Positions 741 to 62,974 of a DNA stretch of 64,000 bases are shown in pieces. A model generated the notes under the pieces. It did no database searches, was not told the DNA's origin, and saw nothing but the letters and a program-made list of their open reading frames with translations. Origin of the DNA: Williamsia sp. 1138 (GTDB lineage Bacteria > Actinomycetota > Actinomycetes > Mycobacteriales > Mycobacteriaceae); the NCBI RefSeq assembly GCF_002095435.2, contig NZ_MJEJ02000042.1, positions 124,001 through 188,000 of the forward strand, given 5' to 3'. Positions within the stretch are counted from its first letter, which is position 1, and each line of letters opens with the position of its first letter. A program made the position numbers and the translations under genes.

Positions 741-755
741 TCCCATTGGACGGGA
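741..755. promoter_or_regulatory. Shared operator-like motif upstream of the importer
   Basis: TCCCATTGGACGGGA, with inverted TCCC/GGGA arms around 7 bases, lies 140 bp before the binding-protein start. TATAAC, six bases on, could be a -10 box. It is one of a family of similar sites found before most operons here (see findings). The rest of 636-895 shows nothing else I can name. Confidence 0.5.
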
Positions 756-895
756 ACCTCTATAACGCACCGGTGTGATCGTCCGCCCATAATCAACCGC
801 CAGCATCCACAAGTGATGCCGGTCACGCGAGCGGCTCAATGTGTCGGGTAACCCATCCGACGTCGCCCTCGCTGTTCTCGCGAAGGAGTCATGAA

Positions 896-2140
896 ATGAA
901 ACTCGGCAGTATGGTTCGCGCTCGGCGAACCCTCGCAGGTGTCAGTGCGGTGCTGCTGGCCGCAACACTGGGAGCGACGGCGTGCAGTAACAGCGACGAG
1001 GACGGGGGCGGCGCGGCCACAAGCCCTACGACATCCCTGCCGGGCAACGCAGCTACCGGTTCGCCGGTCAAGATCGGCTTCATTTCTACCGAAGGCGGCG
1101 GTGTTGTCTCGATCCCTGAATGGCGGCAGGGCGCCGAGGCGGCTGTCGAATACGTCAATAACAATGGCGGCGGCTTCGCGGGCGGTCACTCGATCGACCT
1201 GGTGGTGTGCAAGCAGGCAGAAGAGCCGACCTCGGCGACCGCATGCGCCAACCAGATGGTGGAACAGAAGGTCGCAGCCGTCTTGACGGCCGGAACCTCA
1301 CAGGGAACGGCCATTGTTCCGATCGTCGGCGGCGCCGGAATCCCCTACATCACATTGAATGGTGTCTCCCAGCTCGACGTCGCGTCGCCTGACTCCTTCG
1401 CATTGGCATCGGGGCTCCCCGGAACCATGACTGCAACCGCCACGGCGGCCAAAGCAGAAGGTATGAAGTCGATGACGATCTTCGCAAGTGATGGCGGCGG
1501 CACTGCCGGAATCATCGAGCAGCTCGGTAAACCGATCTTCGAAGGTTTCGGCATCGATCTCAACGTGGTCGCGATAGCGCTCGGCGTGCCCGACCCCACA
1601 CCCCTGGTCGCGTCAGGCTTGGCCGACAATCCAGACGGCATCAGCATCATCGCTGACGCAGCGCTGTGCACGTCGGTGATGAAGGCGGTCCAGACCACAG
1701 AGCCGGACATCAACAAGGTTCTGAACACCGTGTGTCTAGACAAGAACGTTCTGGACGTCGTCGGGGTACAGGCCGTCGAAGGCAACATGGGAATCACGGC
1801 CACCGACGTGTTCTCGGACCGCCCGGACTCGGTTCTCTACCGGTCGGTCATGGGTCAGTATGCTCCTGACCTGTCGCTGACGGGCGCGGGTTCCTCGGGC
1901 TACCAGGTTCTGATGGCTATGGTCAATGCGACCGCAAGCGTCACCGGTGACGTCAATGCAGCGGCAGTGAAGCAAGCGATGCAGGCCACCGACAAGGTTG
2001 AAATGCCGGCCGGTGGAGGAATAACCTTCAGCTGCAACGGATCTGCTTTCCCCATGATGCCCTCGATCTGCTCTACGCAGTTGCTCTACGGTGTGGTCGA
2101 CGATCAAGGGATTCCGCGAGATCTCCAGTTGGCCGGATAG
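896..2140 (+). CDS. ABC transporter substrate-binding lipoprotein, branched-chain amino acid (Peripla_BP_6) type
   Basis: A 414-residue extracellular binding protein. The N-terminus has basic residues, a hydrophobic stretch and a lipobox-like 'GATAC' with Cys30 as the lipidation site; a Gly/Asp-rich linker follows. The mature part resembles LivJ-type proteins ('KIGFISTEGGG' then 'WRQGAEAAVEYVN'). The start at 896 has GAAGGAG about 8 bases upstream; an ATG at 891 reads into an immediate stop. The permease/ATPase fusion begins 37 bp downstream, so this is the specificity subunit of that importer. LivJ-type proteins in actinobacterial catabolic islands often bind aromatic or steroid acids rather than amino acids; that role here is inference. 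Confidence 0.88.
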   Translation: MKLGSMVRARRTLAGVSAVLLAATLGATACSNSDEDGGGAATSPTTSLPGNAATGSPVKIGFISTEGGGVVSIPEWRQGAEAAVEYVNNNGGGFAGGHSIDLVVCKQAEEPTSATACANQMVEQKVAAVLTAGTSQGTAIVPIVGGAGIPYITLNGVSQLDVASPDSFALASGLPGTMTATATAAKAEGMKSMTIFASDGGGTAGIIEQLGKPIFEGFGIDLNVVAIALGVPDPTPLVASGLADNPDGISIIADAALCTSVMKAVQTTEPDINKVLNTVCLDKNVLDVVGVQAVEGNMGITATDVFSDRPDSVLYRSVMGQYAPDLSLTGAGSSGYQVLMAMVNATASVTGDVNAAAVKQAMQATDKVEMPAGGGITFSCNGSAFPMMPSICSTQLLYGVVDDQGIPRDLQLAG

Positions 2141-2177
2141 TCGCGAAGGCTGACCAGGAACAGCAGAAGGAAACATC

Positions 2178-5692: not shown

Positions 5693-5756
5693 GCCGGGCG
5701 GAGAAGCCCTGATCCGCGCCGACGTGGCTGCGGGTCAGAGGTTCGCCCGTCCGGCC
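5692..5756. terminator. Possible bidirectional terminator between convergent genes
   Basis: GGCCGG at 5692-5697 pairs with CCGGCC at 5751-5756, and inside it CTGATCC pairs with GGGTCAG. No clear T tract is present, so the call rests on the paired arms and the convergent arrangement. Confidence 0.35.
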
Positions 5757-5779
5757 ACTCCGCACGTAGCGTGCCGGCG

Positions 5780-6998: not shown

Positions 6999-7820
6999 TC
7001 AGGCCGTTTGAAAGCCGTGCGATGGCGGACGCCAATTCTCGAACTGGTGGGTTGGCAGGTGGGATGCCACACATCGGTCCCAGATCTCGGCTGCGGCGAC
7101 CCGCACTGGTCCGGCAAGCTTCGAGAGCTCGATTTTATTGGAAGGGCCGAACACTGAGATCGCTGCGCGGTTGCCGTAATAGTGATCCGGTGGGCCGAGT
7201 GCTACGCCGACGCAGCTGATCCCGATGGCAAGCTCTTGGTGATCAAAGGCAACGCCATGCTGGCGGACGCCTGCAAGGTCGGCATCGAGTTGCCGACGTG
7301 ACCCGACGCTGTGTGCGGTGGCGCGCTGCAGCGGTGCTGAGTAGATGTCGGAGAGGCGCTCCTCCGAGTAATTGGCGATGATGGCTTTGCCGAGGGCGGT
7401 GAGATGGGCCGGGACGCGCGAACCGATTGCCGTCGCGGCCGAAGGTGAGCGGTGCCCGTGGACGCTGGCCATGTAGATGACGTCACCGTGGTCGACCACT
7501 CCCAAGTGCACCGTCAAGCCAACCGTATGGGCCAGCCGCCGCATGACGGGAGTTGCCTGCTGCAATAGCCGGTTCTGGTTGAAGGCCGACCGACCGATCT
7601 CATAAGCCTTCACGCCGAGCTCGTACGTCTGCTCCTCACGGGCCAGCCATCCGGTGGACGTGAGCTGGTCCAGAAGCCGGTGCACCGACGATCGCGGTAG
7701 GCCAGTTCGCCGTGTCACCTCGACGAGAGTGAGTGGTCCGGTCCCGTTGAAGGTCTCGAGAATGAGTGAGATCCGTTCGACAACCGAAATCGGCGCATCC
7801 GGTATACCTGCGGTGCTCAC
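6999..7820 (-). CDS. IclR-family transcriptional regulator
   Basis: A 273-residue regulator. The N-terminal winged helix-turn-helix spans about residues 10-75 ('RTGLPRSSVHRLLDQL' is the recognition helix), followed by an IclR effector domain ('HLTALGKAIIA'). The GTG at 7820 has GGGAGG four bases upstream. An in-frame ATG at 7982 also has a good GGGAGGA site and would add 54 residues, so two starts are possible. It is divergent from the KshB-like gene, with two motif copies in between (8052-8101), as expected for an autoregulated local regulator. Effector unknown, plausibly a pathway intermediate. Confidence 0.85.
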   Translation of the reverse strand: MSTAGIPDAPISVVERISLILETFNGTGPLTLVEVTRRTGLPRSSVHRLLDQLTSTGWLAREEQTYELGVKAYEIGRSAFNQNRLLQQATPVMRRLAHTVGLTVHLGVVDHGDVIYMASVHGHRSPSAATAIGSRVPAHLTALGKAIIANYSEERLSDIYSAPLQRATAHSVGSRRQLDADLAGVRQHGVAFDHQELAIGISCVGVALGPPDHYYGNRAAISVFGPSNKIELSKLAGPVRVAAAEIWDRCVASHLPTHQFENWRPPSHGFQTA

Positions 7821-8051
7821 AGAACCTCCCTGGACAGAGTGACCAGCCCTGGAAACTGTGATGGCAGTCACTGTCGCACCGATGTTACCGCTGGGAAGCG
7901 AAGGAAGCGATTGCCGCTGGTCACAAGCTTCGGCTCGGTCCTCGGCCGCGCGGATCGAGTCCTGGGTACGGCTGACCTGCATTGAATCCTCCCTAGCGTC
8001 GTCGAGCGTCAAATGCACGGTAGGCGGATCTGGGTCGAGGGACGACCAGTG

Positions 8052-8101
8052 CTCCCACGGAGCGGACGATCCGCACGAACCGATCTCCCGATCAGCGAGA
8101 G
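8052..8101. promoter_or_regulatory. Two degenerate operator-like motifs in the iclR-kshB divergent promoter
   Basis: TCCCACGGAGCGGAC (8053-8067) and TCCCGATCAGCGAGAG (8086-8101) resemble the island-wide motif and lie about 33 bp apart between the IclR gene and the KshB-like gene. Paired sites in a divergent promoter would suit an IclR dimer or tetramer. Both are imperfect matches. Confidence 0.35.
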
Positions 8102-8224
8102 ACGTTGTCGCCGGTCGATCGCCCGGCGCCTAGTCTTCGATCTCGTTGTTCCATGGCTGATTGTGAAGGGCGTGACATTGAATCCACAGCTGGTGCCGGG
8201 CTCGGAGATGCTTAGGCAGAGACC

Positions 8225-9341: not shown

Positions 9342-9356
9342 TCCCATTGTGCGGGA
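9342..9356. promoter_or_regulatory. Shared operator-like motif upstream of kshA
   Basis: TCCCATTGTGCGGGA has perfect TCCC/GGGA arms with a 7-base centre and shares TCCCATTG with the site at 741-755. It sits 104 bp before the KshA-like start in the 141-bp gap. Confidence 0.5.
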
Positions 9357-12896: not shown

Positions 12897-13955
12897 TCAA
12901 CGAGGGGTCGGAACGTCCAGGGGTGCCTCGACGGGGTACTCGGACGGGGCCATTGCGTACCGGGAACTCAGTGCCGCGATGAAGCCCGAATCATTCATCG
13001 GGTCGGACGACTCCGGAACCGGCTCGCCGCGTCGTTTGAGATCGTCCAGGATCATTCCCAGCGCCTTTTCGACGGTGAGATCATCGGTGTGTTCGACGTA
13101 ACGCTTCACGTCTGCGAGGTCGTCGAAGACATGTGCGCTGTAGTGGAACAAGAATCGCATTTCGTCATCCTCATAACGTGCGATCTCGGTTCCGTCATTG
13201 CGGATCACCCATTCGTTGTCGCCCTCACCGCTGATCAAGGAATTCAGTTGCAGGTCAGGGATGGTGCGTCGCCCGCGTGGTCCGCTGGCTTCACCGCGAT
13301 GGAACATCTTTTCGTTGTTGGTGAGAAAACCGTTGTTCCAGAATGGAGCGGGTACCCGCTTTGGCGGAAGGTCCGGTCCCTCGGGCCAGTAGGTGAATCC
13401 ACCATCGATGTCGGAATTGTAGTAGTAGGCGATGACCTGTCCCGACTTGACTTCCCACTCGTCGAACAGCCCCGATTTCGCCATGATGCTGATCAACCAG
13501 AGCGGCGAGTTGTTGGAGTTGATGCCGCGCCAGCTCGAGCCGTCGAAATGCCCGGCGTCGTAGCTATGAGCAGGAGCGCGGAGATTGAACAAGAAGGACT
13601 GAGGCGTCGCGTATTTTGCACCGTGGATCGACTTGATCATGTTCAGCATCTTGCGGCTGAAGTAGAGGTCGTGGACCTCATCCTCGTATGCAATCCCGAA
13701 GTTACCCAGATAGCTGCGGAACGTCGGCGTCAGTAGGTCTGAAAGAGTGAGTTTAGATTTGAGATCGGGGTTCTTCGGGCCCGATACGGCCAGGTACTCC
13801 TCCGCGGTCGCGAAGTGCTGCGCTGCGATGAGTCGCCATGGTCCTTTTCGTCGAACCACGTCGAAAAGAACGGCGATTTCGTCGGGTGAATAGATGTCGC
13901 TGATGACCTCAGGCGGTACCGTGGGGGTCATCGGATGTCGTGCTACCAATGTCAT
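12897..13955 (-). CDS. Unrecognised protein with a possible Fe(II)/2-oxoglutarate oxygenase-like metal site
   Basis: A 352-residue soluble protein with no signal peptide or membrane segment. I do not recognise the family. It contains 'HFDGSSW' (His136-x-Asp138), later 'FHRGEASGPRGRR' with His219 and, eleven residues on, Arg230; HxD...H-x10-R is the pattern of cupin-type Fe(II)/2-oxoglutarate oxygenases. Aromatic-rich stretches ('YYYNSDIDGGFTYWPEG') lie between them. I chose the ATG at 13955 (AAAGGAAG upstream), because a longer frame from 14057 would overlap the VOC gene. It follows that gene by 52 bp. An oxidative role in the pathway is inference; other metal or cofactor-free functions are possible. 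Confidence 0.7.
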   Translation of the reverse strand: MTLVARHPMTPTVPPEVISDIYSPDEIAVLFDVVRRKGPWRLIAAQHFATAEEYLAVSGPKNPDLKSKLTLSDLLTPTFRSYLGNFGIAYEDEVHDLYFSRKMLNMIKSIHGAKYATPQSFLFNLRAPAHSYDAGHFDGSSWRGINSNNSPLWLISIMAKSGLFDEWEVKSGQVIAYYYNSDIDGGFTYWPEGPDLPPKRVPAPFWNNGFLTNNEKMFHRGEASGPRGRRTIPDLQLNSLISGEGDNEWVIRNDGTEIARYEDDEMRFLFHYSAHVFDDLADVKRYVEHTDDLTVEKALGMILDDLKRRGEPVPESSDPMNDSGFIAALSSRYAMAPSEYPVEAPLDVPTPR

Positions 13956-19338: not shown

Positions 19339-19353
19339 TCCCGGTGGCCGGGA
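19339..19353. promoter_or_regulatory. Shared operator-like motif in a divergent promoter
   Basis: TCCCGGTGGCCGGGA has strict TCCC/GGGA arms and a 7-base centre. It lies between the Dabb-type unit (minus strand) and the PadR gene (plus strand). Confidence 0.42.
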
Positions 19354-19446
19354 CGTCCTCGGGTAATTGACGAACCACTGCCAATCGCAGGCAAAGGTTT
19401 TCCGCTAATGATGTGGTCAACCGATGTGCATTGTTAAGCTCGTTTG

Positions 19447-20118
19447 GTGCCTACATCTGACCTCAGCGACCAATACGATCTCCCGGCAACCAGTTGGGCT
19501 GTTTTGGGGATGCTTTCGTTTGGTGAGGAACTGACCGGCAACGATCTGAAGAAGTGGGCCGACTGGAGCATCGGGTTCTTTTATTGGAGCCCGTCGGTGA
19601 GCCAGGTCTATGCAGAGCTCAAAAAGCTCGAGAACCTGGGTCTCGTGAATTCTCGAACGGTCGCGGAGGCCGGCGCTCGTGGCCGCCGGCTCTATGCGAT
19701 CACCGACACAGGCACTGAGGCGCTTCGGGATTGGTCTCGTGATGCCAAGGTGGAAATGCCCGTCCTCAAACACGGCGTCATGCTCCGGTTATGGATGGGT
19801 CACCTCTTGGCGCCCGAGCGACTCAAGATGATCGTCAAAGATCACATCGCGAATCTCGAACACAACGCCAGTGAAGCAAGGCGTCACGCAGAGCACTCGA
19901 ATGATGAACCAGCGTGGGCTTTTTCGAGAATGAGTCTGAGGTGGGCAGACCGGCACTTTCAAGCTGAAATCCGTCTTGCGGAGCAATTGCTCGAAGACAT
20001 CGACGAGGCCTCGCGATGGTTTCGAGATGAATCCGAGACCGGCGAGAACGGCAGAGTGCGACCGCGTCATCCCGGAAGGTGGCGCGAGGCGGACGAGTCA
20101 GACAACGGTACCGCGTAG
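19447..20118 (+). CDS. PadR-family transcriptional regulator
   Basis: A 223-residue regulator. The N-terminal winged helix begins 'WAVLGMLSFGEELTGNDLKKW', with 'SVSQVYAELKKLENLGLV' as recognition helix and 'GRRLYAITDTG' as wing, the PadR pattern. A long C-terminal helical region (about 95-190) is the coiled-coil dimerisation domain. The start may be TTG at 19444 or GTG at 19447; no ribosome site is visible, so the message may be leaderless. It faces away from the Dabb-type genes, its likeliest target. Confidence 0.82.
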   Translation: MPTSDLSDQYDLPATSWAVLGMLSFGEELTGNDLKKWADWSIGFFYWSPSVSQVYAELKKLENLGLVNSRTVAEAGARGRRLYAITDTGTEALRDWSRDAKVEMPVLKHGVMLRLWMGHLLAPERLKMIVKDHIANLEHNASEARRHAEHSNDEPAWAFSRMSLRWADRHFQAEIRLAEQLLEDIDEASRWFRDESETGENGRVRPRHPGRWREADESDNGTA

Positions 20119-20149: not shown

Positions 20150-20914
20150 CTACGCCGACGTCCTGACGTGTTCGTGCGAGTTCGGCATCATTCGAACAGA
20201 GCTACTGCGCTGCAGCACGGGCGCGACATGCTTGTCCAAGCCTCGCCAGATCGCCGCAGCCGTCATCCGGACCTGGCCACCGAACCGGTGATCGAACGAC
20301 ATCTGACCAACGGGCCCGCACAGGGAGACTGCGGCGACGGTGGATCTCAACGGGCCGACGGGCACTGCAATACAACCGATTCCGCAGACCGCTTCCTCGC
20401 GTTCGTAGGCAATTCCCTCTTCACGTATCGCGTCGTACTCGGCGCCCTGCTGACCGTTGAAGGCAAGTAGGGCCTTACCGATCGCGGTGTGGGTAGCCGG
20501 CCGTCGGGCACCAACTCGCGTCGGAACCAGTCCGCCGAATCGGCCACCCAGTTTCTCGCGATAGACGATGTCATCGCCATCGAGGGCAGCGAGGTGAACG
20601 ACCAGGCCAGTGCTGCGATGCAACTGCAGGAGATGCGGCAAGGCCACCGTGTGCAGCTGGTCTTGGTGGATGGCCAGGGATCCGAGTTCCATGAGGCGCA
20701 GGCCGAGGGTGTAATCGCGACCTTCCCGGTGCAGCCATCGCAACTGCACAAGGTGGTCCAGCATGCGATGAGCCGACGACCTCGGCAGGCCTGTCCGTCG
20801 GACGATCTGAGCCAGCGTGAGGCGCCCTGGCCCGTCGAACGTGTCGAGCAGAAGCGAAACACGATCCAGGAATGCGGTAGGCGCTGACTGATCAAAATCT
20901 ACCTGCATCGTCAT
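20150..20914 (-). CDS. IclR-family transcriptional regulator (second copy)
   Basis: A 254-residue regulator resembling the one at 6999 ('RTGLPRSSAHRMLDHLVQL' as recognition helix; 'THTAIGKALLAF' in the effector domain). The ATG at 20914 has GGAGG five bases upstream; a longer frame from 21013 lacks one. It is divergent from the BVMO/esterase operon and converges on the PadR gene. The motif at 21072 and an imperfect inverted repeat around TTTCTAATAGGAA (20965-20977) lie in the divergent region. Likely a local regulator of the BVMO operon. Confidence 0.88.
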   Translation of the reverse strand: MTMQVDFDQSAPTAFLDRVSLLLDTFDGPGRLTLAQIVRRTGLPRSSAHRMLDHLVQLRWLHREGRDYTLGLRLMELGSLAIHQDQLHTVALPHLLQLHRSTGLVVHLAALDGDDIVYREKLGGRFGGLVPTRVGARRPATHTAIGKALLAFNGQQGAEYDAIREEGIAYEREEAVCGIGCIAVPVGPLRSTVAAVSLCGPVGQMSFDHRFGGQVRMTAAAIWRGLDKHVAPVLQRSSSVRMMPNSHEHVRTSA

Positions 20915-21071
20915 GGGGACCTCCTCGTGGCTCGCACCCCTCTCAAGAGCTGCGACATGGCTATTTCTAATAGGAATGGTGCCACAGGATGTGCAGTTTG
21001 TGAAGCAGGTCACTGAAAGGGGGTGTCACCAGCGGAGTTGGCGGGCACCGCGCGTTCGGCATGGCCGCGGG

Positions 21072-21087
21072 GACCACTGGGTGGGAG
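21072..21087. promoter_or_regulatory. Shared operator-like motif upstream of the first BVMO
   Basis: On the minus strand the site reads CTCCCACCCAGTGGTC, matching the CCAGTGG core of the strong copies at 34786 and 54192. It lies 87 bp before the BVMO start and 157 bp before the IclR start. Confidence 0.4.
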
Positions 21088-23788: not shown

Positions 23789-23804
23789 TTCCACCCCACG
23801 GGAA
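23789..23804. promoter_or_regulatory. Shared operator-like motif upstream of the KstD-like gene
   Basis: TTCCACCCCACGGGAA is an inverted TTCC/GGAA pair in the 98-bp gap, 71 bp before the KstD-like start. Confidence 0.45.
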
Positions 23805-33394: not shown

Positions 33395-33410
33395 TTCCAT
33401 CCAGTGGGCG
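33395..33410. promoter_or_regulatory. Shared operator-like motif between importer operon and kinase gene
   Basis: TTCCATCCAGTGGGCG is identical in its first 14 bases to the site at 34786. It lies in a 345-bp divergent gap, 121 bp from the binding-protein start and 208 bp from the kinase start. Nothing else recognisable was seen in 33274-33618. Confidence 0.48.
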
Positions 33411-34785: not shown

Positions 34786-34801
34786 TTCCATCCAGTGGGA
34801 A
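34786..34801. promoter_or_regulatory. Shared operator-like motif, best copy, upstream of an SDR
   Basis: TTCCATCCAGTGGGAA has inverted TTCC/GGAA arms and is the fullest copy in the window. It lies 110 bp before the SDR start at 34912. No gene was recognised in 34638-34911. Confidence 0.55.
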
Positions 34802-37583: not shown

Positions 37584-37599
37584 TTCCGTCCAGTGGGCG
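37584..37599. promoter_or_regulatory. Shared operator-like motif upstream of an MFE2-like SDR
   Basis: TTCCGTCCAGTGGGCG keeps the TCCAGTGGG core and lies 69 bp before the TTG start at 37669. A frame that would start at 37522 would place this site inside coding sequence, which supports the later start. Confidence 0.48.
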
Positions 37600-45909: not shown

Positions 45910-46902
45910 TCACAGGTAACGCCCGGCGGCGACGTCGGCAGTCCTGAGCACGTCATCGAGGTATCTTTCGGTCAGTTCCGCGTACCGGCGGCCGACCTGT
46001 CTTTTAATGTCAGAGAATAGCTTTCGGAGGTCATCGAGTCGGGCTGTCTGAGACCTGACGAGCAGATCAATCCCCGCCGGCGTCGCGGTGAGCTGTTTGC
46101 TTCGTCTATCGGCCCCATTCGGCTCACGTGTTATGAGACCCTGTTGGTCCAATGTGCTCACTGCCCTCGACGCCGCTGACTGTTCGAGGTCGAGTCGGCT
46201 GGCGAGATCGGAAATCGTAGTCGGGCTGAACCTTTGGATATCGGCAAGGGCAAAATACTGCGACGGCGTCAATGTGACCTCGACGGCCCGCAGCACATCC
46301 TCGAAATTGGCTCGACCCACCAGATACACGATTTCTGCAATTGATGCGGTACAACGGGCAGCCTCGCTCTTGGCGATAGGTGCTTGCCTCGGATATGGAG
46401 TCGCGTCGAGGTCGCTCGAATCGAAATCGACCAGATCGGGGCCGGCATGCGCCTCCATGACCGTTGTCAGCCGGGTGCTCGCGCACTGCAGCCACTCAGT
46501 GAGAGTTTCGACGTCCTCGTGATTCCAGGTATCCAGTGGTCGCTGCAATTCCGTCTTCCAGGACATCTGCCACTGATGCATCAGGGCGTCGCCGGAGTCG
46601 GAAAGCTTCAGGACGACCTGTCGGCGGTCGTCGGTGCCCCGTGCTTTGATGACGAAGCCTTGACGAACAAGGGCTGCTACAGTGCGACTCGATTGTGTCG
46701 AGTCCGTTCGTAGTGCCTTTGCAAGTTCGTTCGCCCCGCGCGGCCCCCGCGCAAGGACGTTAAGTGTCTCGATACCCGACCGCGGGAGCAGGAGACCGGT
46801 GGCTGTTTCGAACCGGCGGCGTGCGGCATTGCTGTGTGAGGAGTACATGAACAGGTTGATCATCCGCAACAGGGCGGCCTCGAGTGAAGTGTCATGCGGC
46901 AC
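45910..46902 (-). CDS. Single-chain regulator with two MarR-type domains
   Basis: A 330-residue protein, twice the usual MarR length. Domain 1 (about 10-150) has a winged helix with 'ANELAKALRTDSTQSSRTVAALVRQGFV' and the wing 'TDDRRQVVLKLSDSG'. Domain 2 (about 185-325) repeats the pattern with 'TISDLASRLDLEQSAASRAVSTLDQQGLI' and the wing 'GADRRSKQLTATPAG'. Both keep the DRR wing, so each can probably bind DNA. MarR proteins normally dimerise; this chain may be a built-in pseudo-dimer. An inverted repeat lies just upstream at 46912. Likely target: its own promoter and the neighbouring genes. Confidence 0.85.
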   Translation of the reverse strand: MPHDTSLEAALLRMINLFMYSSHSNAARRRFETATGLLLPRSGIETLNVLARGPRGANELAKALRTDSTQSSRTVAALVRQGFVIKARGTDDRRQVVLKLSDSGDALMHQWQMSWKTELQRPLDTWNHEDVETLTEWLQCASTRLTTVMEAHAGPDLVDFDSSDLDATPYPRQAPIAKSEAARCTASIAEIVYLVGRANFEDVLRAVEVTLTPSQYFALADIQRFSPTTISDLASRLDLEQSAASRAVSTLDQQGLITREPNGADRRSKQLTATPAGIDLLVRSQTARLDDLRKLFSDIKRQVGRRYAELTERYLDDVLRTADVAAGRYL

Positions 46903-47020: not shown

Positions 47021-48487
47021 TCATTGGGCGGCCGCATGCTTTCCGGCCCGGCGCCCGAAAAAGCTGCTGTCTCCCAAGCTGGCTCCGCTTGCGTACCCAC
47101 CCGCGCACACACCCGAGGTGCACCGTCCGGCTGCGAACAATCCTGGTATCGGTTCTCCCGACACGTGCAGGACCTCGGCATCCACTGTTGTTTTGAGGCC
47201 GCCGAGGGTGAAACCACCGGTCATAGCCCGCAGATCGTAGGCGGCGATCGGGGTGGTGATCGGGGTGAGCCACTCCGACTTCTTGGAAAACACCGGGTCG
47301 GAGCCCGATGCTGCGTGGTGGTTGAAAAGCTCAACTGTCGACTGGAGTGATCCTTTCGGTAAGCCGATTTCGTTCTCGAGCTCTTCTACGCTCTCACATA
47401 CCCACTTGGGAGTTCCTCGCATGATCGCGCTGGTCGACTCTGTCTGCAGGGCCTTTTCATACGACAATTCGTCGATGATCAGAAATGCGTCGCCGCCCTG
47501 GTGGAGTAGGGTTTCCTGTGCGATGCGCCCCGGGTAGGTGTCCTCGTTGATGTAGCGCTGGCCTCGTCCGTTGACGAGAATTCCTCTCGCCATCAGTTGC
47601 GGGTCGCAGAAGATGGCAACCTCGGTGGCATCCATGTGGGCTGTCGCGGCGCCGATCGCCTGGCTCATCAGAATTGCCCTGCCGTCATGGCTTTCGATCG
47701 ACGCCGCGGGACGACCTTCAATTCGGGGTGCATGGTCACGGAGCATGGTGTCGTCGTAGGCAAAACTCCCGGTGGCCAGAACTACGCCGCGTCGGGCCTT
47801 GATCGCAATACTCACCCCGTACTGGCGGACAGTCAGGCCGACGACGCGATTGTTCTCGTCGATGACCAGGGCTTGGACGCGAGAGTCGTATAGGGTTCGC
47901 GCGCCGAGGGCCTCCGCTGTCTCGATCAGCGGCTTCATCAACATGTAACCGCCGGCCTGCTCGCCGTCGTCAGATGCGGACTTGCGTGGGAGGTGGCCGC
48001 GTGGCGCGGGTGGGATCACCTTGTTGAAGGGTGCCGAGTTCTCGCCGCCTGAGTACATGAGACCTTCGCTGTGAGGAGGTTCCCATCCCGGCTCACCCCA
48101 GAACGATTCATCGAAGACCACGCCAGCGTCGATGAGCCAGTTGAAGTGGTCGACGCTGCCGTCGCAGTACGCGTCGATCTTGGCATCGTCGACACCTGGC
48201 CCGAGCGCGGCCTTCATGAACGCCTTCATGTTCTCCGCCGAATCGTCGAATCCCAGCGCATTCTGTAGGGGGGTGCCACCTCCGAGGTAGATGAAGCCAC
48301 CCGACATCGCCGCCGCGCCGCCTGCGCCGCCAAGACGTTCTAGTACCAGCACGTCAGCGCCGGCGCGAGCGGCCTCGATGGCGGCCGCGGCGCCCGCGAT
48401 GCCGAAACCTGCTACCAGTACGTCGGATTCATACGACCAGGTGTCGATCGATGACGCCTTGACCGGGATGAGCGTGGGATCTGGCAT
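47021..48487 (-). CDS. 3-ketosteroid delta4-(5alpha)-dehydrogenase-like flavoprotein
   Basis: A 488-residue FAD enzyme of the KstD/fumarate reductase superfamily. It has 'VAGFGIAGAAAAIEA', 'GGAAAMSGGFIYLGGG' and a C-terminal 'GRCTSGVCAGGYASGASLGD'. The block holding Tyr465 and Ser467 matches, in length and position, the Tyr466/Ser468 pair reported for the delta4-(5alpha)-KSTD of R. jostii (489 residues). That enzyme desaturates 5alpha-3-ketosteroids to 4-enes, opening the pathway to 5alpha-reduced substrates. GGAGGC precedes the ATG. The old yellow enzyme gene lies upstream on the same strand with a 98-bp gap holding a motif copy. Confidence 0.8.
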   Translation of the reverse strand: MPDPTLIPVKASSIDTWSYESDVLVAGFGIAGAAAAIEAARAGADVLVLERLGGAGGAAAMSGGFIYLGGGTPLQNALGFDDSAENMKAFMKAALGPGVDDAKIDAYCDGSVDHFNWLIDAGVVFDESFWGEPGWEPPHSEGLMYSGGENSAPFNKVIPPAPRGHLPRKSASDDGEQAGGYMLMKPLIETAEALGARTLYDSRVQALVIDENNRVVGLTVRQYGVSIAIKARRGVVLATGSFAYDDTMLRDHAPRIEGRPAASIESHDGRAILMSQAIGAATAHMDATEVAIFCDPQLMARGILVNGRGQRYINEDTYPGRIAQETLLHQGGDAFLIIDELSYEKALQTESTSAIMRGTPKWVCESVEELENEIGLPKGSLQSTVELFNHHAASGSDPVFSKKSEWLTPITTPIAAYDLRAMTGGFTLGGLKTTVDAEVLHVSGEPIPGLFAAGRCTSGVCAGGYASGASLGDSSFFGRRAGKHAAAQ

Positions 48488-48550: not shown

Positions 48551-48565
48551 TCCCTGTCACCGGGA
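48551..48565. promoter_or_regulatory. Shared operator-like motif upstream of the delta4-KSTD-like gene
   Basis: TCCCTGTCACCGGGA has strict TCCC/GGGA arms with a 7-base centre but a diverged core. It lies 63 bp upstream of the start at 48487. Confidence 0.35.
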
Positions 48566-50635: not shown

Positions 50636-51505
50636 TCAACCCTCGTGCGCTGCGGTCAGGTCGTACATGCGTGCAAGAACATCCAGTTGATCGCAATAGT
50701 GATTTGCTGATGACGCGATGATGCTCGCGCCGATCACTGTTGCCCCAGCTTCGTTTGACTGATCGATATGCCGCCTGCACCGGTCGGCATCGCCGATCGG
50801 GTCGAGTCCGCCTACGGACAGCACGACCTCAAAACCTGACGGAAGGTCCTTGGTGCCGAGAAGATGTACGAGTTCCTCGACGGACAGGCCGAATGGCACC
50901 CATCCATCTGCAAGCTCGACTGCCCTGCTCAACGAGCGTGCCGAACGGCCACCGATCCAGAAAGGAACGTGGGACTGCATCGCGTGCGGATCGAGAACAA
51001 CGTCGGAGAACTCAAAGAAGTCCCCACTGTACTGAGGTTCCGCGGTCGAGATGGCGGCGCGCAAGGCAGCCAGAGCGTCGTCGGCCCGCTTGCCGCGGTC
51101 GGCGAAAGGGACGGCCAGTAGCTCGAACTCCTCCTGAAGTGAACCGACGCCCAGACCGAGGATCAAGCGACCTGAGCTCACGACGTCCAGCGTCCCGTAG
51201 CGCTTGGCAATCTCCAACGGATGGTGATAGCCAAGGACGAGTACTTGAGTGGCGAGCCTGATGCGCTCGGTTCGTGCTGCCAGAAAGCCGAGCGTGGCCA
51301 ACGGATCCCAGTAGGTCCCGCCGCGCGCTACCGCGATCTCGACGGGAACAGCGACGTGCTCACTGCAGGTGAAATGATGAAACCCCAAGTGGTCTGCAGC
51401 CGAGGCGATCTGCGCGAGCTCGGTGATCCCCGCTTTCGTCTCCCATGTACTGTGAGCTCCCGGGAACCGGGTCACCACGGGAGCGGTGATCCCGATTCGC
51501 ATCAT
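50636..51505 (-). CDS. LLM-type oxidoreductase, probably F420-dependent, coupled to a BVMO gene
   Basis: A 289-residue luciferase-like barrel protein: 'MRIGITAPVV', 'GFHHFTCSEHVAVP', 'RLILGLGVGSLQEEFELL' and 'VPFWIGGRSARSLSRAV'. These fit the actinobacterial F420-dependent LLM group. The start lies in an ATGATG that overlaps the stop of the upstream BVMO by 4 bp (ATGA), so the two are translated together. It may act before or after the BVMO on the same ketone or alcohol, for example as an F420-dependent dehydrogenase. Confidence 0.83.
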   Translation of the reverse strand: MMRIGITAPVVTRFPGAHSTWETKAGITELAQIASAADHLGFHHFTCSEHVAVPVEIAVARGGTYWDPLATLGFLAARTERIRLATQVLVLGYHHPLEIAKRYGTLDVVSSGRLILGLGVGSLQEEFELLAVPFADRGKRADDALAALRAAISTAEPQYSGDFFEFSDVVLDPHAMQSHVPFWIGGRSARSLSRAVELADGWVPFGLSVEELVHLLGTKDLPSGFEVVLSVGGLDPIGDADRCRRHIDQSNEAGATVIGASIIASSANHYCDQLDVLARMYDLTAAHEG

Positions 51506-53505
51506 TCGGCGCGGCGGCTGGTGTACACCAGGTCGTCGGTGTTCGGTTCCCGCAGCATCGTCCAGTAGTCGACGAGTCGCCACGGGCAGGGAACGATAGG
51601 GCGGCCCTGCTGATTGCGGTAGTACCCGGTCACTCCTTCGCCCGGATGAGCCCAGACCGTCTTGTCGAGTGCTTCGTCGACCCGCTCGTTGTAAGCGGCA
51701 AGGGCTTCGGGTTTGACGTCGACCGATGACATGTTGTTCTCCACCAGGTACTGGAGGTTCTCGATAATGTAGTGGACGTGTTCCTCGCTGGTGATATTGT
51801 GCCCCGCACCATGATTCGGTGCAGCATTTGGTCCCGCAGTGACGAACAGGTTCGGGAAGCCCGCGACCTGGATGCCGAGATAGGCGCGCGGGTCGTTTCC
51901 GCCATCCCATCGGTCGCTCAGCTTTTCGCCGTTTCGCCCGGTGATGTCGATGAACGATGCATATTCGACCTTGAATCCGGTCGCAAGCACGATGATGTCG
52001 GCCTCCACGAACTCGCCGTCGCTCAAGGTCACCCCGTTGGGTTGCACCGAAGTCGGAGATGCGCGGTGTAGCGACACGTGGTCACGCTTGAGGGCCTCGA
52101 GAAAGCCTGGATCCTTCACGATGCGCTTGGCATATGGTCGGACGGTCGGCGTCATCTTCTCTTTGAGATCCGGGCGGTCGGGAAACGTCTGATCGAGATA
52201 CCGCAGAGACACCTGCATCACCCGGTCGTTGAGGGCGGAAACAGACAAATGCGTTGCTGCCCAATCCGGGTCGATGCGCGGCATCATGTATAAGTTGTCA
52301 GACGCCAGCCAGTAGGCCTTGAGCCGGAACCAGTTCTGGAAGTATGGAAGATGCTTCATCGCCCACCTTTCACCGGATGGAACATCGTTCACCACTGACT
52401 TCTCGGGCACGATCCAGTGCGGACTACGCACCACCGCGGCGAGGGCTGCCACGTCATCAACGATGTTGGCGACCAGTTGCACTGCAGTGCAACCGGTGCC
52501 GATCACCACTACTCGCTTATCGGTCAGATCGAGTTCTGGATCCCACTCCGCGGTGTGGATCACGGTGCCGTCGAAGGTATCGAGACCGGGGATGTCCGGA
52601 ACGTTGATGGAGTTAAGAACGCCCAGGGCGGTGACCACCGCGGCCGCGCGATGATGTTGAATTCGCCCGTCGGCACCTCTTGTGACCACTGTCCATTTCT
52701 GTTCCGCCTCATCCCAGTCGGCCGACAGCACCGACGTTGACAGTTCGATGTTCTTGATGAGGTCATATTTTTTGGCGACGGCATGCATGTACTCGAGGTA
52801 CTCCGGGCCGGTGGGGTAGTACTTCGACCAGTTCGGGTTCAACTCAAAGGAATACGAGTAGTAATGGCTGGGAGTGTCCACTGCCGCGCCGGGGTAGATA
52901 TTGCGCGACCAGGTACCACCGATATCGTCGCGGGCTTCGAACACCTTGTATCCGAACCCGGCCGCATCCAGTTTGACGGCTGCGTTGAGTCCGATCATTC
53001 CGGCGCCGATCACGATCACATCGAGGTCGGCAGGTGGAGTCTTGGTGACCGGTACGCGTCGCCGGCCCAGTTCGAAGCCACCCTGCTCCAGGAGGATCGG
53101 GATGAATTCGTCGTCCACCTCACTGACGGTGCACAGTGCCGCCATCCTACGAAAGAGGCCGGGTTCCGGAACTCCTAATCTTGGGGTCAGATCAGTGGTG
53201 AGCACCTCGTGAGCACGCTTGCGGATCGCTACGACGACGTCGGTCGGAAACTCTCCTGGCAGGACGACCGCGGCATCGCTGGAAGCACCGTAATGGGTCT
53301 TTGCGGTCTCGCCGGCGGAGGCGCTCCGAGAGTCGGCGAGTATGTCCTCGAACTCGTCGAGCAGGGCAAGGTTACCGGTGACGTGGACCATCGACATCAA
53401 CAATGCACCTGGCTCGGCCTGGTCGATGGCTGCTCTCAGGTCTTCGGCAGTCACCTCGACCTCCTCGTCGATGGTCGAGTCGGTGACGGTGGACAGCGTG
53501 CTCAT
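51502..53505 (-). CDS. Baeyer-Villiger monooxygenase with an N-terminal extension (HAPMO-like architecture)
   Basis: A 667-residue type I BVMO. The catalytic part begins near residue 158 with 'VIVIGAGMIGLNAA', carries the fingerprint 'FDGTVIHTAEWD' at residues 311-322 and a second Rossmann motif 'VVVIGTGCTAVQL'. About 155 residues precede it, mostly helical and acidic ('DEEVEVTAEDLRAAIDQAEP'), like the extension of 4-hydroxyacetophenone monooxygenase. GAAGGGAAGTC lies before the ATG. It differs clearly from the BVMO at 21175, so the two probably act on different ketones. A weak shared motif is 110 bp upstream. Confidence 0.9.
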   Translation of the reverse strand: MSTLSTVTDSTIDEEVEVTAEDLRAAIDQAEPGALLMSMVHVTGNLALLDEFEDILADSRSASAGETAKTHYGASSDAAVVLPGEFPTDVVVAIRKRAHEVLTTDLTPRLGVPEPGLFRRMAALCTVSEVDDEFIPILLEQGGFELGRRRVPVTKTPPADLDVIVIGAGMIGLNAAVKLDAAGFGYKVFEARDDIGGTWSRNIYPGAAVDTPSHYYSYSFELNPNWSKYYPTGPEYLEYMHAVAKKYDLIKNIELSTSVLSADWDEAEQKWTVVTRGADGRIQHHRAAAVVTALGVLNSINVPDIPGLDTFDGTVIHTAEWDPELDLTDKRVVVIGTGCTAVQLVANIVDDVAALAAVVRSPHWIVPEKSVVNDVPSGERWAMKHLPYFQNWFRLKAYWLASDNLYMMPRIDPDWAATHLSVSALNDRVMQVSLRYLDQTFPDRPDLKEKMTPTVRPYAKRIVKDPGFLEALKRDHVSLHRASPTSVQPNGVTLSDGEFVEADIIVLATGFKVEYASFIDITGRNGEKLSDRWDGGNDPRAYLGIQVAGFPNLFVTAGPNAAPNHGAGHNITSEEHVHYIIENLQYLVENNMSSVDVKPEALAAYNERVDEALDKTVWAHPGEGVTGYYRNQQGRPIVPCPWRLVDYWTMLREPNTDDLVYTSRRAE

Positions 53506-53613: not shown

Positions 53614-53629
53614 GCCCATTCAGTGGACC
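53614..53629. promoter_or_regulatory. Degenerate shared motif upstream of the second BVMO
   Basis: GCCCATTCAGTGGACC keeps CCATTCAGTGG of the stronger copies (CCATCCAGTGG). It lies 108 bp before the BVMO start in a 166-bp gap. Confidence 0.3.
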
Positions 53630-54191: not shown

Positions 54192-54207
54192 TCCCGTCCA
54201 GTGGGAA
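54192..54207. promoter_or_regulatory. Shared operator-like motif in the isomerase-flavin reductase divergent promoter
   Basis: TCCCGTCCAGTGGGAA is one of the best copies, 126 bp before the flavin reductase start and 130 bp from the isomerase start on the other strand. Nothing else recognisable in 54062-54333. Confidence 0.52.
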
Positions 54208-54333
54208 AGGGGACGCCGCCTCGCTGGCGCGCTGGATAGCCTCTATGTGGGCGACGAGAACTAGGTGGGCAATGTATGCGATCGCCTCGTGACCAATGAT
54301 CGGTACCGCTGAAGACGAGCGGCTGCGGAAGGT

Positions 54334-55190: not shown

Positions 55191-55206
55191 GTCCGCTGGA
55201 TGGGAA
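55191..55206. promoter_or_regulatory. Shared operator-like motif upstream of the HsaD-like gene
   Basis: The minus strand reads TTCCCATCCAGCGGAC, close to the copy at 34786. It ends 41 bp before the start at 55248. The site before the hsaG-like gene has exactly the same 41-bp spacing. Confidence 0.48.
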
Positions 55207-56158: not shown

Positions 56159-56174
56159 TCCCGATGGATGGGAA
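56159..56174. promoter_or_regulatory. Shared operator-like motif upstream of the hsaG-like gene
   Basis: TCCCGATGGATGGGAA has strict TCCC/GGGA arms with a 7-base centre, ending 41 bp before the start at 56216, the same distance as the site before hsaD. Confidence 0.48.
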
Positions 56175-56215: not shown

Positions 56216-57115
56216 ATGGAACCCATCAACGCCGCGATTGTCGGACCGGGAAACATCGGAACCGACTTGTTGGCCAAACTCGAGAGACTTGATTCGATCT
56301 CTGTTCAATATGTCGTCGGGGTCGTCGAGTCCGACGGCCTGGAACGGGCACGAGCCAAGGGAGTCGCTGCCTCGGCCGGCGGAGTGGACTGGTTGCTACA
56401 GCAGAGCCCGCTTCCCGAGATCGTCTTCGAGGCGACGTCGGCGAAGGCGCATGTGCTGAATGCGCCGCGTTACGCGGAGTTGAACATTCAGGCGGTCGAC
56501 CTCACGCCTGCACACATCGGACCGATGGTCTGCCCACCGGTGAACCTTACCCAGCACATCGAGGCGCCCAATGTCTCTATGATCACCTGCGGTGGGCAGG
56601 CCACCATCCCGATGGTGCATGCGGTGTCCCGTGTGACTCCGGTGCCCTATGCCGAGATCGTCGCGTCGGTGGCCTCCCGCGGCGCAGGGCCGGGTACTCG
56701 CGCCAACATCGATGAGTTCACCCAGACGACCGGCAAGGCGGTATCCGAAGTCGGAGGCGCCGAGCGTGGACGGGCAATCATCATTCTGAACCCGATGGAG
56801 CCGCCGATGATCATGCGAGACACCGTTTACTGCATGATCAATGCTGATGCCGATCGCCAAGCGATCACAGAGTCGGTGCACCGCATGGTCGCCGAGGTGC
56901 AGTCCTACGTGCCCGGTTACGAACTGCGCGCCGACCCGCAGTTCGACGACCCGAAAGAAGGGTGGGACGGACACGGCCGCGTCGCCATCTTCCTGGAGGT
57001 CGAGGGCAACGGTGACTACCTGCCCAAGTACGCAGGAAACCTGGACATCATGACCGCGGCAGCAGCGCGGGTCAGCGACGCGATCGCCCGCAACCGGATC
57101 GGAGTATCAGCATGA
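56216..57115 (+). CDS. hsaG: Acylating acetaldehyde/propionaldehyde dehydrogenase (HsaG-like)
   Basis: A 299-residue CoA-dependent aldehyde dehydrogenase of the BphJ/DmpF/HsaG family. '[17 protein letters not shown]' is the nucleotide-binding start; Cys125 in '[11 protein letters not shown]' is the acylating thiol; '[15 protein letters not shown]' is a family hallmark. It converts the aldehyde released by the aldolase into acetyl- or propionyl-CoA. It overlaps the aldolase gene by ATGA, as expected for enzymes that form a channelling complex. Confidence 0.93.
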
Positions 57116-58188: not shown

Positions 58189-58205
58189 TCACGGAGAGGA
58201 AACGC

Positions 58206-59300
58206 ATGACGTCGACACCGCAGGGCCCGGCCTTGGCTGACTCCGGGCGGAACGAACTGCTGCTTTCGTTCCGCCAGAGTGGCATGGCCATCGTGATTGA
58301 CGGAGTTGGCGAGTCCTTCAGGGCGGATCTGGTGGCACCGGCAGAAACGGTCGACGGTCGCCAAGTGGCCAAGATGATCGAGTATTCGTCGGGCCTGGTG
58401 TGTGCGGCGGTAACCGACTCGCACGCCGCACGATTGGAGCTGCCGGACATACCGACGGCGTCGAACAAAGGTGACGCGAACCGACGGTTCAGTGTCGCGG
58501 TCGACGCCGCCGACGGGGTGACCACGGGAATATCGGCACGAGACCGAGCCCTTACACTCGGCGTGCTCGCGAGCACAGATTCGCGACCGGCGGACCTCAC
58601 CAGGCCCGGTCATGTGATGGTCCTGCGTGCCGATCCCGCGGGGCGCGGGCAGGCGGCCGCAGCCTTGCGGTTATGCCATCTGGCAAGTCTGCCACGGGTT
58701 GCTGCCATCGCGCCGCTGATGTTCGACGAAAACGATCAGATCGCGAATAGGGAACATACGCAGATGCTGGCCGCGATCCTTGAGGTACCGGTCATCGACA
58801 GCGCACACACCCGATGGAATGCGACGGCGCACGGCACCCAAGGTGAGTGGAAGCTTTCCGTATTCGATGCCGACTGCGATGTGGTGTGTGTGCGCGCATT
58901 CGGGCGGCTGGACGGTGACGCCGTTCCGCTGATCGGCATCCGTGGTCGTTGTCTGGACAGCGAGGTGGGCGGCTCAGCTGCGTGCCGGTGTGGACTCGAA
59001 GCCGCGGCGTGGACGCGTACGGTCGAGCAGCACGGTGCCGGAGCAATTCTGGTCTATCGCGACCGGTATCAGCGGTGCGTCGACAGGCCGGCGGCCGAGC
59101 TCGCCCGGATGCGGTTCGAGCAGACGAAAGTACTCGCGCGCATGCTGGGTATATATCGATATCGGATCCTTGGTCCTCTGGTCGGCGGGGGCACGCAACC
59201 GGCCGCCTACCGCGGCCCCAGGTCGGCGAACTCGACGGTGATGTCCGACCTCATGGACTTCACCGATGGATCTGATCCCTACATTCAGCGTGCGGTCTGA
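58206..59300 (+). CDS. RibBA-like protein with degenerate catalytic motifs, inside the hsa operon
   Basis: A 364-residue protein aligning with the DHBP synthase (RibB)-GTP cyclohydrolase II (RibA) fusion. The RibB half keeps 'GVTTGISARDRALT' (104-117) and 'RPGH' (133-136), but the catalytic acidic loop DRENEGD is 'GESFRAD' (35-41), and the GHTEA and later Glu positions are lost. The RibA half keeps Zn-type cysteines Cys249, Cys260 and Cys262 with exact C-x10-C-x-C spacing, but not the EGRGIGL-type segment. So neither riboflavin reaction is expected. It starts 17 bp after hsaF (GAGAGG upstream) and overlaps hsaE by 35 bp. Function unknown; a new reaction or a structural or regulatory role in the pathway is possible. 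Confidence 0.8.
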   Translation: MTSTPQGPALADSGRNELLLSFRQSGMAIVIDGVGESFRADLVAPAETVDGRQVAKMIEYSSGLVCAAVTDSHAARLELPDIPTASNKGDANRRFSVAVDAADGVTTGISARDRALTLGVLASTDSRPADLTRPGHVMVLRADPAGRGQAAAALRLCHLASLPRVAAIAPLMFDENDQIANREHTQMLAAILEVPVIDSAHTRWNATAHGTQGEWKLSVFDADCDVVCVRAFGRLDGDAVPLIGIRGRCLDSEVGGSAACRCGLEAAAWTRTVEQHGAGAILVYRDRYQRCVDRPAAELARMRFEQTKVLARMLGIYRYRILGPLVGGGTQPAAYRGPRSANSTVMSDLMDFTDGSDPYIQRAV

Positions 59301-60165: not shown

Positions 60166-60173
60166 AGTAGATA

Positions 60174-60192
60174 GTCCGCCCACCGTGCGGAC
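60174..60192. promoter_or_regulatory. Perfect inverted repeat upstream of the second KstD-like gene
   Basis: GTCCGC-CCACCGT-GCGGAC (6-bp arms, 7-base centre) lies 47 bp before the start at 60240. It resembles the shared motif in size and in TCC/GGA arm ends but is not a strict match; a short terminator after hsaE is an alternative reading. Confidence 0.4.
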
Positions 60193-60239
60193 AGGCCCGG
60201 TCTGTGCAGGGTTCGACAAGCAAACGAAGGAGCCAACCG

Positions 60240-61814: not shown

Positions 61815-61910
61815 CCAAGGCCGAGTTGACGCGGTGACGGTGGCTGGTGAGCGAGTGCCTGGAGCGTCCCTCGCTCAGAAATGTGTGCCCACAATTCAAG
61901 GAAGGCGCTG

Positions 61911-62714
61911 ATGACCAGCTCAACGGCGGACACCTGGTTAGGCCGCGACCTGGGTTCGCGAGAAGTTTCATGGGACGAACGCGATGCAATCTTGTTCGCA
62001 CTCGCGGTGGGGGCGCGTCCGGATCAGCTGGACTTGGTCTTCGAGCGAGATCTTCGGGTGCTGCCGACCTTTGGTCTGAGCCTGGCGCAATGGGCACCGG
62101 ATGCGCTCGGTGAAACCGGCGCATTCGACGTACGTCAGGCACTTCACGGTTCGCAACGTCTGAAAGTCCATGCGCCGCTGGCTCCCGCAGGTGCTGCGAC
62201 GTTGGCGGCAACGGTTACGGGCGTATGGGACAAGGGGCGCGCCGCAGTCTTCGACGTCATGGTGAGTTGCGAATACTTCGACGCGACATGGTCGATCTTC
62301 GCGCCTGGTCGAGGTGGCTTCGGCGGGGATCGAGGCCCGGCCATGATTCCCCCCGCAGACTCCGAGCCAGTCACATCGCAGTCCGTTCTGATACCGGAAA
62401 ACGCCGCTCTACTCTACCGCCTGTCGGGGGATCGACATCTCATCCACGTCGATCCCGTGGCAGCACAAGCAATCGGGCAACCCCGTCCCATCCTGCACGG
62501 CCTGGCTACGTTGTCAGCTGCCACACTGGTGTTGGCCGAATTGGCAGGCAGTCACCCCGCAGATCTCGTGGAACTCGAGGGCCGCTTCAGCGCTGTTGTA
62601 TTTCCAGGCGAGGTCGTCCAAATCGCGAGTTCTTCCAATGGCAACTTCGAGGTCAGCACAGATCGGGGCATCGCGATAGACCGCGGTCGTGTTCATTTCG
62701 AAGACCGGACGTGA
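61911..62714 (+). CDS. MaoC-like enoyl-CoA hydratase (hydratase 2, double hot-dog)
   Basis: A 267-residue protein with an N-terminal degenerate hot-dog half ('WLGRDLGSREVSWDERDAIL') and a C-terminal hydratase-2 half. The motif 'YRLSGDRHLIHVDP' (169-182) keeps catalytic Asp174 and His179; the usual Asn-Pro after the Asp is replaced. Such enzymes make (3R)-hydroxyacyl-CoAs, the substrates of MFE2-like SDRs such as those at 37669 and 42078. AAGGAAGG precedes the ATG at 61911. Confidence 0.88.
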   Translation: MTSSTADTWLGRDLGSREVSWDERDAILFALAVGARPDQLDLVFERDLRVLPTFGLSLAQWAPDALGETGAFDVRQALHGSQRLKVHAPLAPAGAATLAATVTGVWDKGRAAVFDVMVSCEYFDATWSIFAPGRGGFGGDRGPAMIPPADSEPVTSQSVLIPENAALLYRLSGDRHLIHVDPVAAQAIGQPRPILHGLATLSAATLVLAELAGSHPADLVELEGRFSAVVFPGEVVQIASSSNGNFEVSTDRGIAIDRGRVHFEDRT

Positions 62715-62959
62715 ATCGGTTTTGAACTGATCCCGTCCCAACGCCCCCGACTGACCCAGTTCGCGGTAATTCATCCGGCGATGTCGCATCGGCGACAACA
62801 ACTGGTGTCTTCGTCGAGTCGACTCCTGAAAACGTTGCGTGAATACCTGTTGCCTCTGGAGTGGACCACAAGTCACGTCGTTCGATCGAGCTGATCCGCC
62901 TACGTACGACCACTTTGCGGCGTTCTGCTGCCGGATCGGAATCGACCGTTCGAGATGAT

Positions 62960-62974
62960 TCCCGCTTAGCGGGA
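62960..62974. promoter_or_regulatory. Shared operator-like motif upstream of the MFS transporter
   Basis: TCCCGCTTAGCGGGA is a perfect 15-bp palindrome with a single central base, 91 bp before the MFS start. No gene was recognised in 62715-63065; short frames there lack ribosome sites and family features. Confidence 0.5.

Follow-up and report, generated by a model that had tools for sequence, protein, structure and literature searches.

Known Regulators and Comparable Loci

Steroid catabolism in actinobacteria has been described as being regulated by KstR and KstR2 (PMC8228715), which are TetR repressors that act at TNNAACNNGTTNNA-type and AAGCAAGNNCTTGCTT sites and control the ksh, kstD and hsa genes of steroid breakdown (PMC8228715, PMC5348764). 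In Rhodococcus ruber Chol-4, kshA1 and kshA2 are without KstR boxes; its authors call for another steroid regulator and proposed an unidentified repressor for these two genes (PMC8228715). The present report concerns a short inverted repeat, TYCC-N7-GGGA, which recurs in the promoters of a catabolic gene island of Williamsia sp. 1138. The DNA analysed (the window) comprises 64,000 nucleotides, i.e., positions 124,001 to 188,000 of the forward strand of contig NZ_MJEJ02000042.1. Judged by sequence comparison, the repeats are likely to be operators in a steroid regulon of the IclR family, distinct from those of KstR and KstR2, in which binding would most probably activate.

Operators of IclR group-1 have the consensus GKTYCRYW3-4RYGRAMC (PMC8222616). 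The Williamsia motif resembles them in part, in being an inverted repeat with a TYCRY-N3-RYGRA core, in lying beside IclR genes and in its catabolic targets, which include Liv and Dpp-type transporters (PMC8222616). When aligned by hand, 12 of the 15 positions of the motif agree with the consensus; those that differ are −6 and +6, where C/G replaces T/A, and position 0, with C/G at the centre (PMC8222616). GenR of Corynebacterium glutamicum is likewise an IclR regulator with seven bases between the inner CC and GG of its site, ATTCC-N7(5)-GGAAT, but its halves are TTCC rather than TCCC and it serves gentisate genes (PMC8222616). About 15 promoters carry the motif here, whereas 98 of 181 IclR regulogs contain ten or fewer COGs (range 1–55; PMC8222616). 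The word "steroid" is absent from the main text of the survey from which these comparisons come (Suvorova and Gelfand 2021, PMC8222616).

Two published steroid clusters are comparable in gene content. For R. ruber Chol-4, a figure legend has iclR and padR beside kstD, kshA, hsaC and chnB, and the available part of that paper describes no operator or regulon (PMC6498646). The pRHL1 cluster of R. jostii RHA1, to which the window island is related, encodes homologues of IclR1 (56% identity), IclR2 (77%), PadR (81%) and HsaFG (90–92%) of the window and also carries the motif; its function is called unknown, and the text available for that cluster names no regulator of it (PMC4810484).

The Motif in the Window

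The motif is a 15-bp pseudo-palindrome, TCCCRYYNRRYGGGA, and the site is real, conserved and linked to promoters. TYCC-N7-GGGA has 17 strand matches in the window, compared with a mean of 5.59 and a maximum of 15 in 100 shuffled sequences, and with about 3 expected per 64 kb from the 147 + 147 strand matches in the genome (6.08 Mb). These 17 matches represent 10 sites: nine that the sequence-only reading had listed as intergenic, and one (15031) inside a coding gene. Genes were called with a script of our own, such that their starts are approximate; by these calls all nine listed sites are indeed intergenic and intergenic DNA makes up 13.6% of the window, giving a binomial p of 1.4e-7 for at least 9 of 10 sites. 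When all inverted 4-mers with spacers of 0–20 (5,376 patterns) were counted in gaps and in coding DNA, TCCC-N7-GGGA ranked 1 in the window and 2,379 in 400 kb of other contigs of the same genome.

A scanning matrix was built from the nine window sites and used at a threshold of 12 bits or more unless stated. Seven near-matches had also been reported, and all of them do lie in promoter gaps; four (8086, 33395, 37584, 55191) score 10.9–12.4 bits, but the others (8053, 21072, 53614) score only 6.8–8.0 bits. One site had been overlooked (14498, 12.0 bits). The asymmetric core TCCAGTGGG, proposed as a signature shared by several sites, was rejected as a feature of the motif, since among 199 promoter rows 47% have C and 47% have G as the central base.

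The motif is unlike the operators of KstR and KstR2, as had been claimed. No exact box of either type (TNNAACNNGTTNNA or ANCAAGNNCTTGNT) occurs in the window. The same genome has two more hsaA-bearing clusters, on contigs C17 (stretches L137 and L138) and C20 (L139), with three exact KstR-type boxes in L137, two in L139 and none in L138; none of these three stretches has an intergenic motif match of at least 10.5 bits (L137 and L138 have three coding matches).

Conservation of the Site

A search of 60 relatives with IclR1 gave identities above 50% in Williamsia limnetica (100%), Nocardia carnea (60%), W. muralis (58%) and R. phenolicus (52%). Their islands share many genes with the window in rearranged order, and IclR1, IclR2 and PadR are present in all four. 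The W. limnetica island is too near to the window to be independent, which leaves three diverged islands. In these, TCCC-N7-GGGA ranks 2 (W. muralis), 1 (R. phenolicus) and 476 (N. carnea) of the 5,376 patterns, and 1 in the three pooled; the N. carnea island has one exact site and supports the motif by matrix and orthologous position only. Matrix matches are intergenic/coding 14/2 in W. muralis, 8/1 in N. carnea and 9/2 in R. phenolicus (31/5 in total), i.e., about 8.7 versus 0.2 per 10 kb. For the window genome, 400 kb were sampled; they contain 2 intergenic and 8 coding matches, which is an equal density (0.27 versus 0.25 per 10 kb). In the related islands, gap and coding densities are unequal.

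The site is also kept in orthologous promoters, often at the same distance. From motif centre to start, it is 51, 52, 50 and 51 bp for gene 18948 (window, W. muralis, N. carnea, R. phenolicus), 148, 149 and 144 bp for the SBP gene (window, W. muralis, R. phenolicus), and 50, 50 and 51 bp for hsaD (window, W. muralis, N. carnea), with 50 bp again for hsaD on pRHL1. The equal spacing noted earlier for hsaD and hsaG holds, at 50 bp each, when hsaG is read from a likely ATG at 56216 (the gene caller chose an earlier start).

Named loci with an IclR1 orthologue number 24 and come from the genera Williamsia, Nocardia, Gordonia and Rhodococcus; four of these loci belong to islands already counted. 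Together the 24 loci have 62 intergenic and 24 coding matches at 11 bits or more, and the called kshA is preceded by a site in 20 of the 24, lying 93–97 bp upstream in 19 of these. Twenty further regions, picked for IclR or PadR matches and including two with poor gene calls (L113 and L128), have 58 intergenic and 15 coding matches at 12 bits or more. Across 401 genomes, exact palindrome counts do not track the island, as many genomes have 0–5 matches and controls are similar. Two genera (g10 and g18) have more than many others; in the g10 genome G017, one of eight stretches examined (L095) is an IclR-bearing hsa cluster. By comparison of these sequences, the predicted regulon extends beyond the island, as it recurs in further genera of the family at hsa/ksh/kstD clusters that include an IclR gene. 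The proposal that one regulator controls much of the island is favoured by the comparative evidence; the asymmetric core is not, the pseudo-palindrome being symmetric.

Position of the Site Within Promoters

Forty-five promoter rows, hand-picked from the scored sites and from the near-matches listed earlier (three sites entered in both directions), were aligned by the motif and read in the direction of the gene. Beyond the motif itself, two columns carry the most information, namely +43 with T (0.70 bits) and +39 with A (0.46), and no other exceeds 0.31; the two columns correspond to a TANNNT box whose first base is 38 bp from the motif centre. All three letters are present at +38 in 10 of 45 rows and two or more in 26. 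Offset 38 scores 1.53, a value reached in none of 2,000 random rotations; the next-best offset scores 0.87. In 154 further rows taken by rule (12 bits, gene 40–400 bp away, both directions where divergent), which are not all independent, as related Nocardia species and two additional strains of N. carnea are among their sources, offset 38 was again best (29 full boxes; score 1.21 against a null maximum of 0.81 in 1,000 rotations). No −35 hexamer is conserved in the aligned rows. If the box is taken to lie at −12 to −7, the motif would extend from about −57 to −43, placing the site near −50. This is an activator-like position, from which IclR proteins could activate, a suggestion that leans on where known IclR activators are placed; the preferred spacing to the −10 box favours activation over a classical repressor operator.

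The sites and predicted boxes are as follows (window coordinates; the motif copies are given without strand; +38 is the offset of a −10 box from the motif centre).

741..755, motif copy, branched-chain-type ABC transporter operon (SBP gene); 19.4 bits; 148 bp before the gene
8086..8100, motif copy, IclR1/kshB divergent gap; 12.4 bits; −10 TAGTCT at +38 towards kshB; sites also in the orthologous W. muralis gap and in Nocardia loci
8131..8136, plus strand, predicted −10 box TAGTCT of kshB, at 38 bp spacing from the motif
9342..9356, motif copy, kshA-hsaA-hsaC promoter; 17.0 bits
14498..14512, motif copy, 14008/14606 divergent gap (SDR); 12.0 bits; orthologous W. muralis site at 89 bp
19339..19353, motif copy, gap of gene 18948 and the PadR gene; 16.5 bits; orthologous sites
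21072..21086, weak motif copy, promoter of the steroid monooxygenase-like BVMO; 7.5 bits only; −10 TAGCGT at +38
23789..23803, motif copy, promoter of KstD-type gene 23828; 13.1 bits; −10 TACGTT at +38, this hexamer being identical at the N. carnea orthologue
33395..33409, motif copy, dipeptide-type ABC transporter (SBP5) operon; 11.0 bits; full −10 box absent at +38; counterparts before the N. carnea and R. phenolicus orthologues
34786..34800, motif copy, SDR 34912 promoter; 16.6 bits; orthologous sites in W. muralis, N. carnea and R. phenolicus
37584..37598, motif copy, SDR 37852 promoter; 10.9 bits; −10 TAGATT at +38
48551..48565, motif copy, promoter of KstD-type gene 47021-48487; 15.6 bits; 71 bp from the gene (70 in W. 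muralis, 63 in R. phenolicus)
53614..53628, weak motif copy, second BVMO (51502-53505); 6.8 bits only; two of three −10 positions at +38
54192..54206, motif copy, SnoaL/hsaB divergent gap; 18.5 bits; −10 TAGCCT at +38 towards hsaB
54237..54242, plus strand, predicted −10 box TAGCCT of hsaB, at 38 bp spacing from the motif
55191..55205, motif copy, hsaD promoter; 10.9 bits; 50 bp before the gene
56159..56173, motif copy, hsaG-hsaF promoter; 17.0 bits; 50 bp before hsaG on RHA1 pRHL1 also
62960..62974, motif copy, promoter of open reading frame 63132 (MFS-like, as the start of the predicted protein suggests); 16.9 bits; 165 bp before the called start

Candidate Regulators

Three regulators are encoded near the sites, together with sites of CRP/GlxR type (pattern matches, given without strand).

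6999..7820, minus strand, IclR1, candidate binder (PF01614 and PF09339)
20150..20914, minus strand, IclR2, candidate binder (PF01614 and PF09339; start by hidden Markov model alignment)
19510..20118, plus strand, PadR-family regulator, conserved neighbour and less likely binder (PF03551 for the longer frame 19444-20118)
813..826, CRP/GlxR-type GTGA-N6-TCAC site between the motif and the SBP gene, also in W. muralis (64382) and R. phenolicus (33314)
7858..7871, CRP/GlxR-type GTGA-N6-TCAC site before IclR1
21000..21013, CRP/GlxR-type GTGA-N6-TCAC site before IclR2

Most likely, the binder is of IclR type, because the site resembles the IclR group-1 consensus and because IclR accompanies the site in Williamsia species that are without this PadR. 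IclR1 and IclR2, each with IclR_C (PF01614) and HTH_IclR (PF09339) domains, are both encoded beside sites, and a site accompanies an IclR gene across the clusters examined, the exception being sites of genome G091 (of genus g18), which have no IclR nearby. The view that the two IclR proteins are the best candidates is favoured by linkage, by likeness to the consensus and by the genomes lacking PadR. The two proteins share the helix LPRSS[VA]HR[LM]L and fall in separate clades; candidate binders are IclR1, IclR2 or both. The IclR2 clade includes the IclR of hsa/ksh stretches with a single IclR gene and that of the R. ruber-type kshA-kstD2 locus. As an IclR2-type gene stands alone with the motif in stretches from genome G219 and several others, IclR2 would be the better single candidate. 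A MarR-type (45910) and a TetR-type (50080) protein of the window were rejected as binders, since blastp at 1e-10 matched them to none of the genes called in the islands of W. muralis, N. carnea and R. phenolicus.

GTGA-N6-TCAC ranks 2 in the three pooled islands; it precedes IclR1, IclR2 and the SBP gene of the window and recurs in the other islands. Exact copies lie within 200 bp before 26 of 53 IclR genes (related species included) versus 40 of 1,009 genes overall (IclR genes included); with one mismatch, the figures are 43 of 53 versus 177 of 1,009. The distance is 29–38 bp for most IclR1 genes and 81–92 bp for the IclR2 genes of island type and of G219. This suggests a second regulatory tier above the IclR genes.

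The kstD2 Promoter of R. ruber

The 34-base sequence printed for the kstD2 upstream region matches exactly in one of 401 genomes, G219. The kshA/kstD2 gap of that genome carries TCCCGGTGGGCGGGA, with a TAGCCT whose first base is exactly 38 bp from the centre of this motif copy (the site was placed by tblastn, the gene caller having set it inside a wrong-strand frame). TAGCCT is the −10 box proposed for kstD2p, whose 5′ end has been mapped to 48 bp upstream of the ATG (PMC5348764). Neighbours of the locus are homologues of IclR2 (62%), PadR (61%), hsaC, hsaA and kshA.

Proposed Mechanism and Alternative Explanations

The motif, its conservation and spacing, the linkage to IclR genes and the CRP-type site can all be read from the sequence. 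The most likely explanation is that the site is an operator within a large steroid regulon of IclR type. An IclR dimer (IclR2, IclR1 or both, the recognition helices being nearly identical) would bind the pseudo-palindrome. At many promoters the centre of this site lies 38 bp before a TANNNT −10 box, or at about −50 relative to the predicted transcription start, and no −35 element is conserved. Binding would most likely activate transcription in the presence of a steroid-ring metabolite, and the targets would be the uptake, BVMO, KstD, KshAB, SDR and Hsa-type operons. As the IclR genes often have a CRP/GlxR-type site, carbon status would probably set the amount of regulator.

Several observations weigh against this explanation. 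The recognition helix is generic for IclR proteins, and 16 of the 20 genomes picked also have a PadR (at least 42% identity). The rest of the window contig is itself mildly biased towards gaps (1 intergenic versus 2 coding matches at 12 bits, 8 versus 15 at 8 bits), and the exact palindrome is found at 13 places in G091; in the 11 regions containing these places, our own profile found no IclR among the called genes. Nineteen of the 45 promoters match the −10 box at fewer than two of three positions, and in both transporter promoters TAAT near +40 to +42 takes its place. For kstD2, 71 bp rather than about 50 separate the motif centre from the mapped 5′ end, which is 28 bp past the −10 box; its authors, too, call this box "a bit far" (PMC5348764).

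Possibly, another regulator may use a similar site in G091. In its stretches L099–L109, five palindromes lie 86–110 bp before called genes that are mostly unlike island genes. A separate stretch, L110, where the gene calls put all matches in coding frames, was not used.

The idea that TCCC/GGGA pairs merely reflect chance or base composition in GC-rich gaps draws on the 294 occurrences of the looser TYCC-N7-GGGA per genome (two strands) and on the low rank of the exact pattern in N. carnea alone; set against the intergenic bias, the orthologous conservation, the −10 spacing and the independent islands, it can practically be dismissed. The conserved PadR might instead bind the motif, as the four islands compared all have it, as do most of the examined clusters with an IclR gene, and the gap before its own gene has the motif. 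However, PadR does not occur wherever the motif does: four genomes (G003, G005, G006 and G008, the IclR of G005 being called in part) have only short PadR matches of at most 40% identity, yet keep the motif at steroid-type gene clusters with IclR. A plasmid search gave 265 records matching IclR1, two of which were examined; one plasmid stretch (R138, 40.8 kb) carries the motif, and neither gene calling nor annotation shows a PadR-like gene in it. PadR operators, moreover, are usually ATGT-N-ACAT, and binding by PadR is very improbable.

Two further alternatives retain IclR as the binder. IclR1 and IclR2 could split the sites, one activating and the other repressing, for which the conservation of both genes in the four islands, in separate clades, and the variation of the inner motif bases between promoters can be adduced; clusters with a single IclR in the stretch examined have an identical motif, which makes such a division rather doubtful. 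Alternatively, the same protein at the same motif could repress, with release upon ligand binding. Purely blocking operators should, in general, lie across the core promoter at no fixed position, whereas the sites here lie at a preferred distance from the −10 box, upstream of the −35 region, where no −35 element is conserved. Although some IclR proteins are repressors (PMC8222616), a repressor was proposed for kshA1/kshA2 of R. ruber (PMC8228715) and the mapped kstD2 5′ end misfits the predicted start, repression is unlikely, and an activating IclR-type regulator is preferred.

Other Genes of the Island

Pfam supports KshA (PF19298), KshB-, HsaA-, HsaB-, HsaC-, HsaE-, HsaF- and HsaG-type proteins, FAD-binding KstD-type proteins and two ABC transporters, while the predicted HsaD at 55248 takes its name from its sequence only. 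The first BVMO matches the steroid monooxygenase 4aos at 792 bits. We infer a role of the island in C17-side-chain steroids.

Three further genes are of interest.

12897-13931, minus strand, 344-amino-acid protein with no match in Pfam (longer frame) or NCBIfam; RHA1 pRHL1 and the R. phenolicus island encode two homologues each
45910-46902, minus strand, one frame with two MarR-type stretches, i.e., a fused double MarR, with no match in the three diverged islands
58206-59300, plus strand, DHBP-synthase (RibB-type) gene flanked by hsaF- and hsaE-like genes; passes the Pfam cut-off but falls short of the curated thresholds of NCBIfam for RibB/RibBA; it might serve flavin supply or encode a diverged enzyme

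Significance

As far as the open-licence literature goes, the regulon appears new, its mechanism being of a known kind. A wider reading is that there is a third steroid regulon throughout the Mycobacteriaceae (in the GTDB sense), in which paired IclR paralogues under CRP/GlxR control would activate, from near −50, steroid pathways that are independent of KstR, namely those of androstenedione, progestin-type and cholate-type clusters, the pRHL1 cluster and R. ruber kshA/kstD2; taken as a whole, this is somewhat more probable than its opposite. If true, it identifies the regulator which the R. ruber authors require at kshA promoters that have no KstR box. The site, the regulator genes and the predicted promoter position allow the question of the kshA1/kshA2 regulator to be tested directly, and the site might find use in biosensors for steroids and in engineered strains that produce them.

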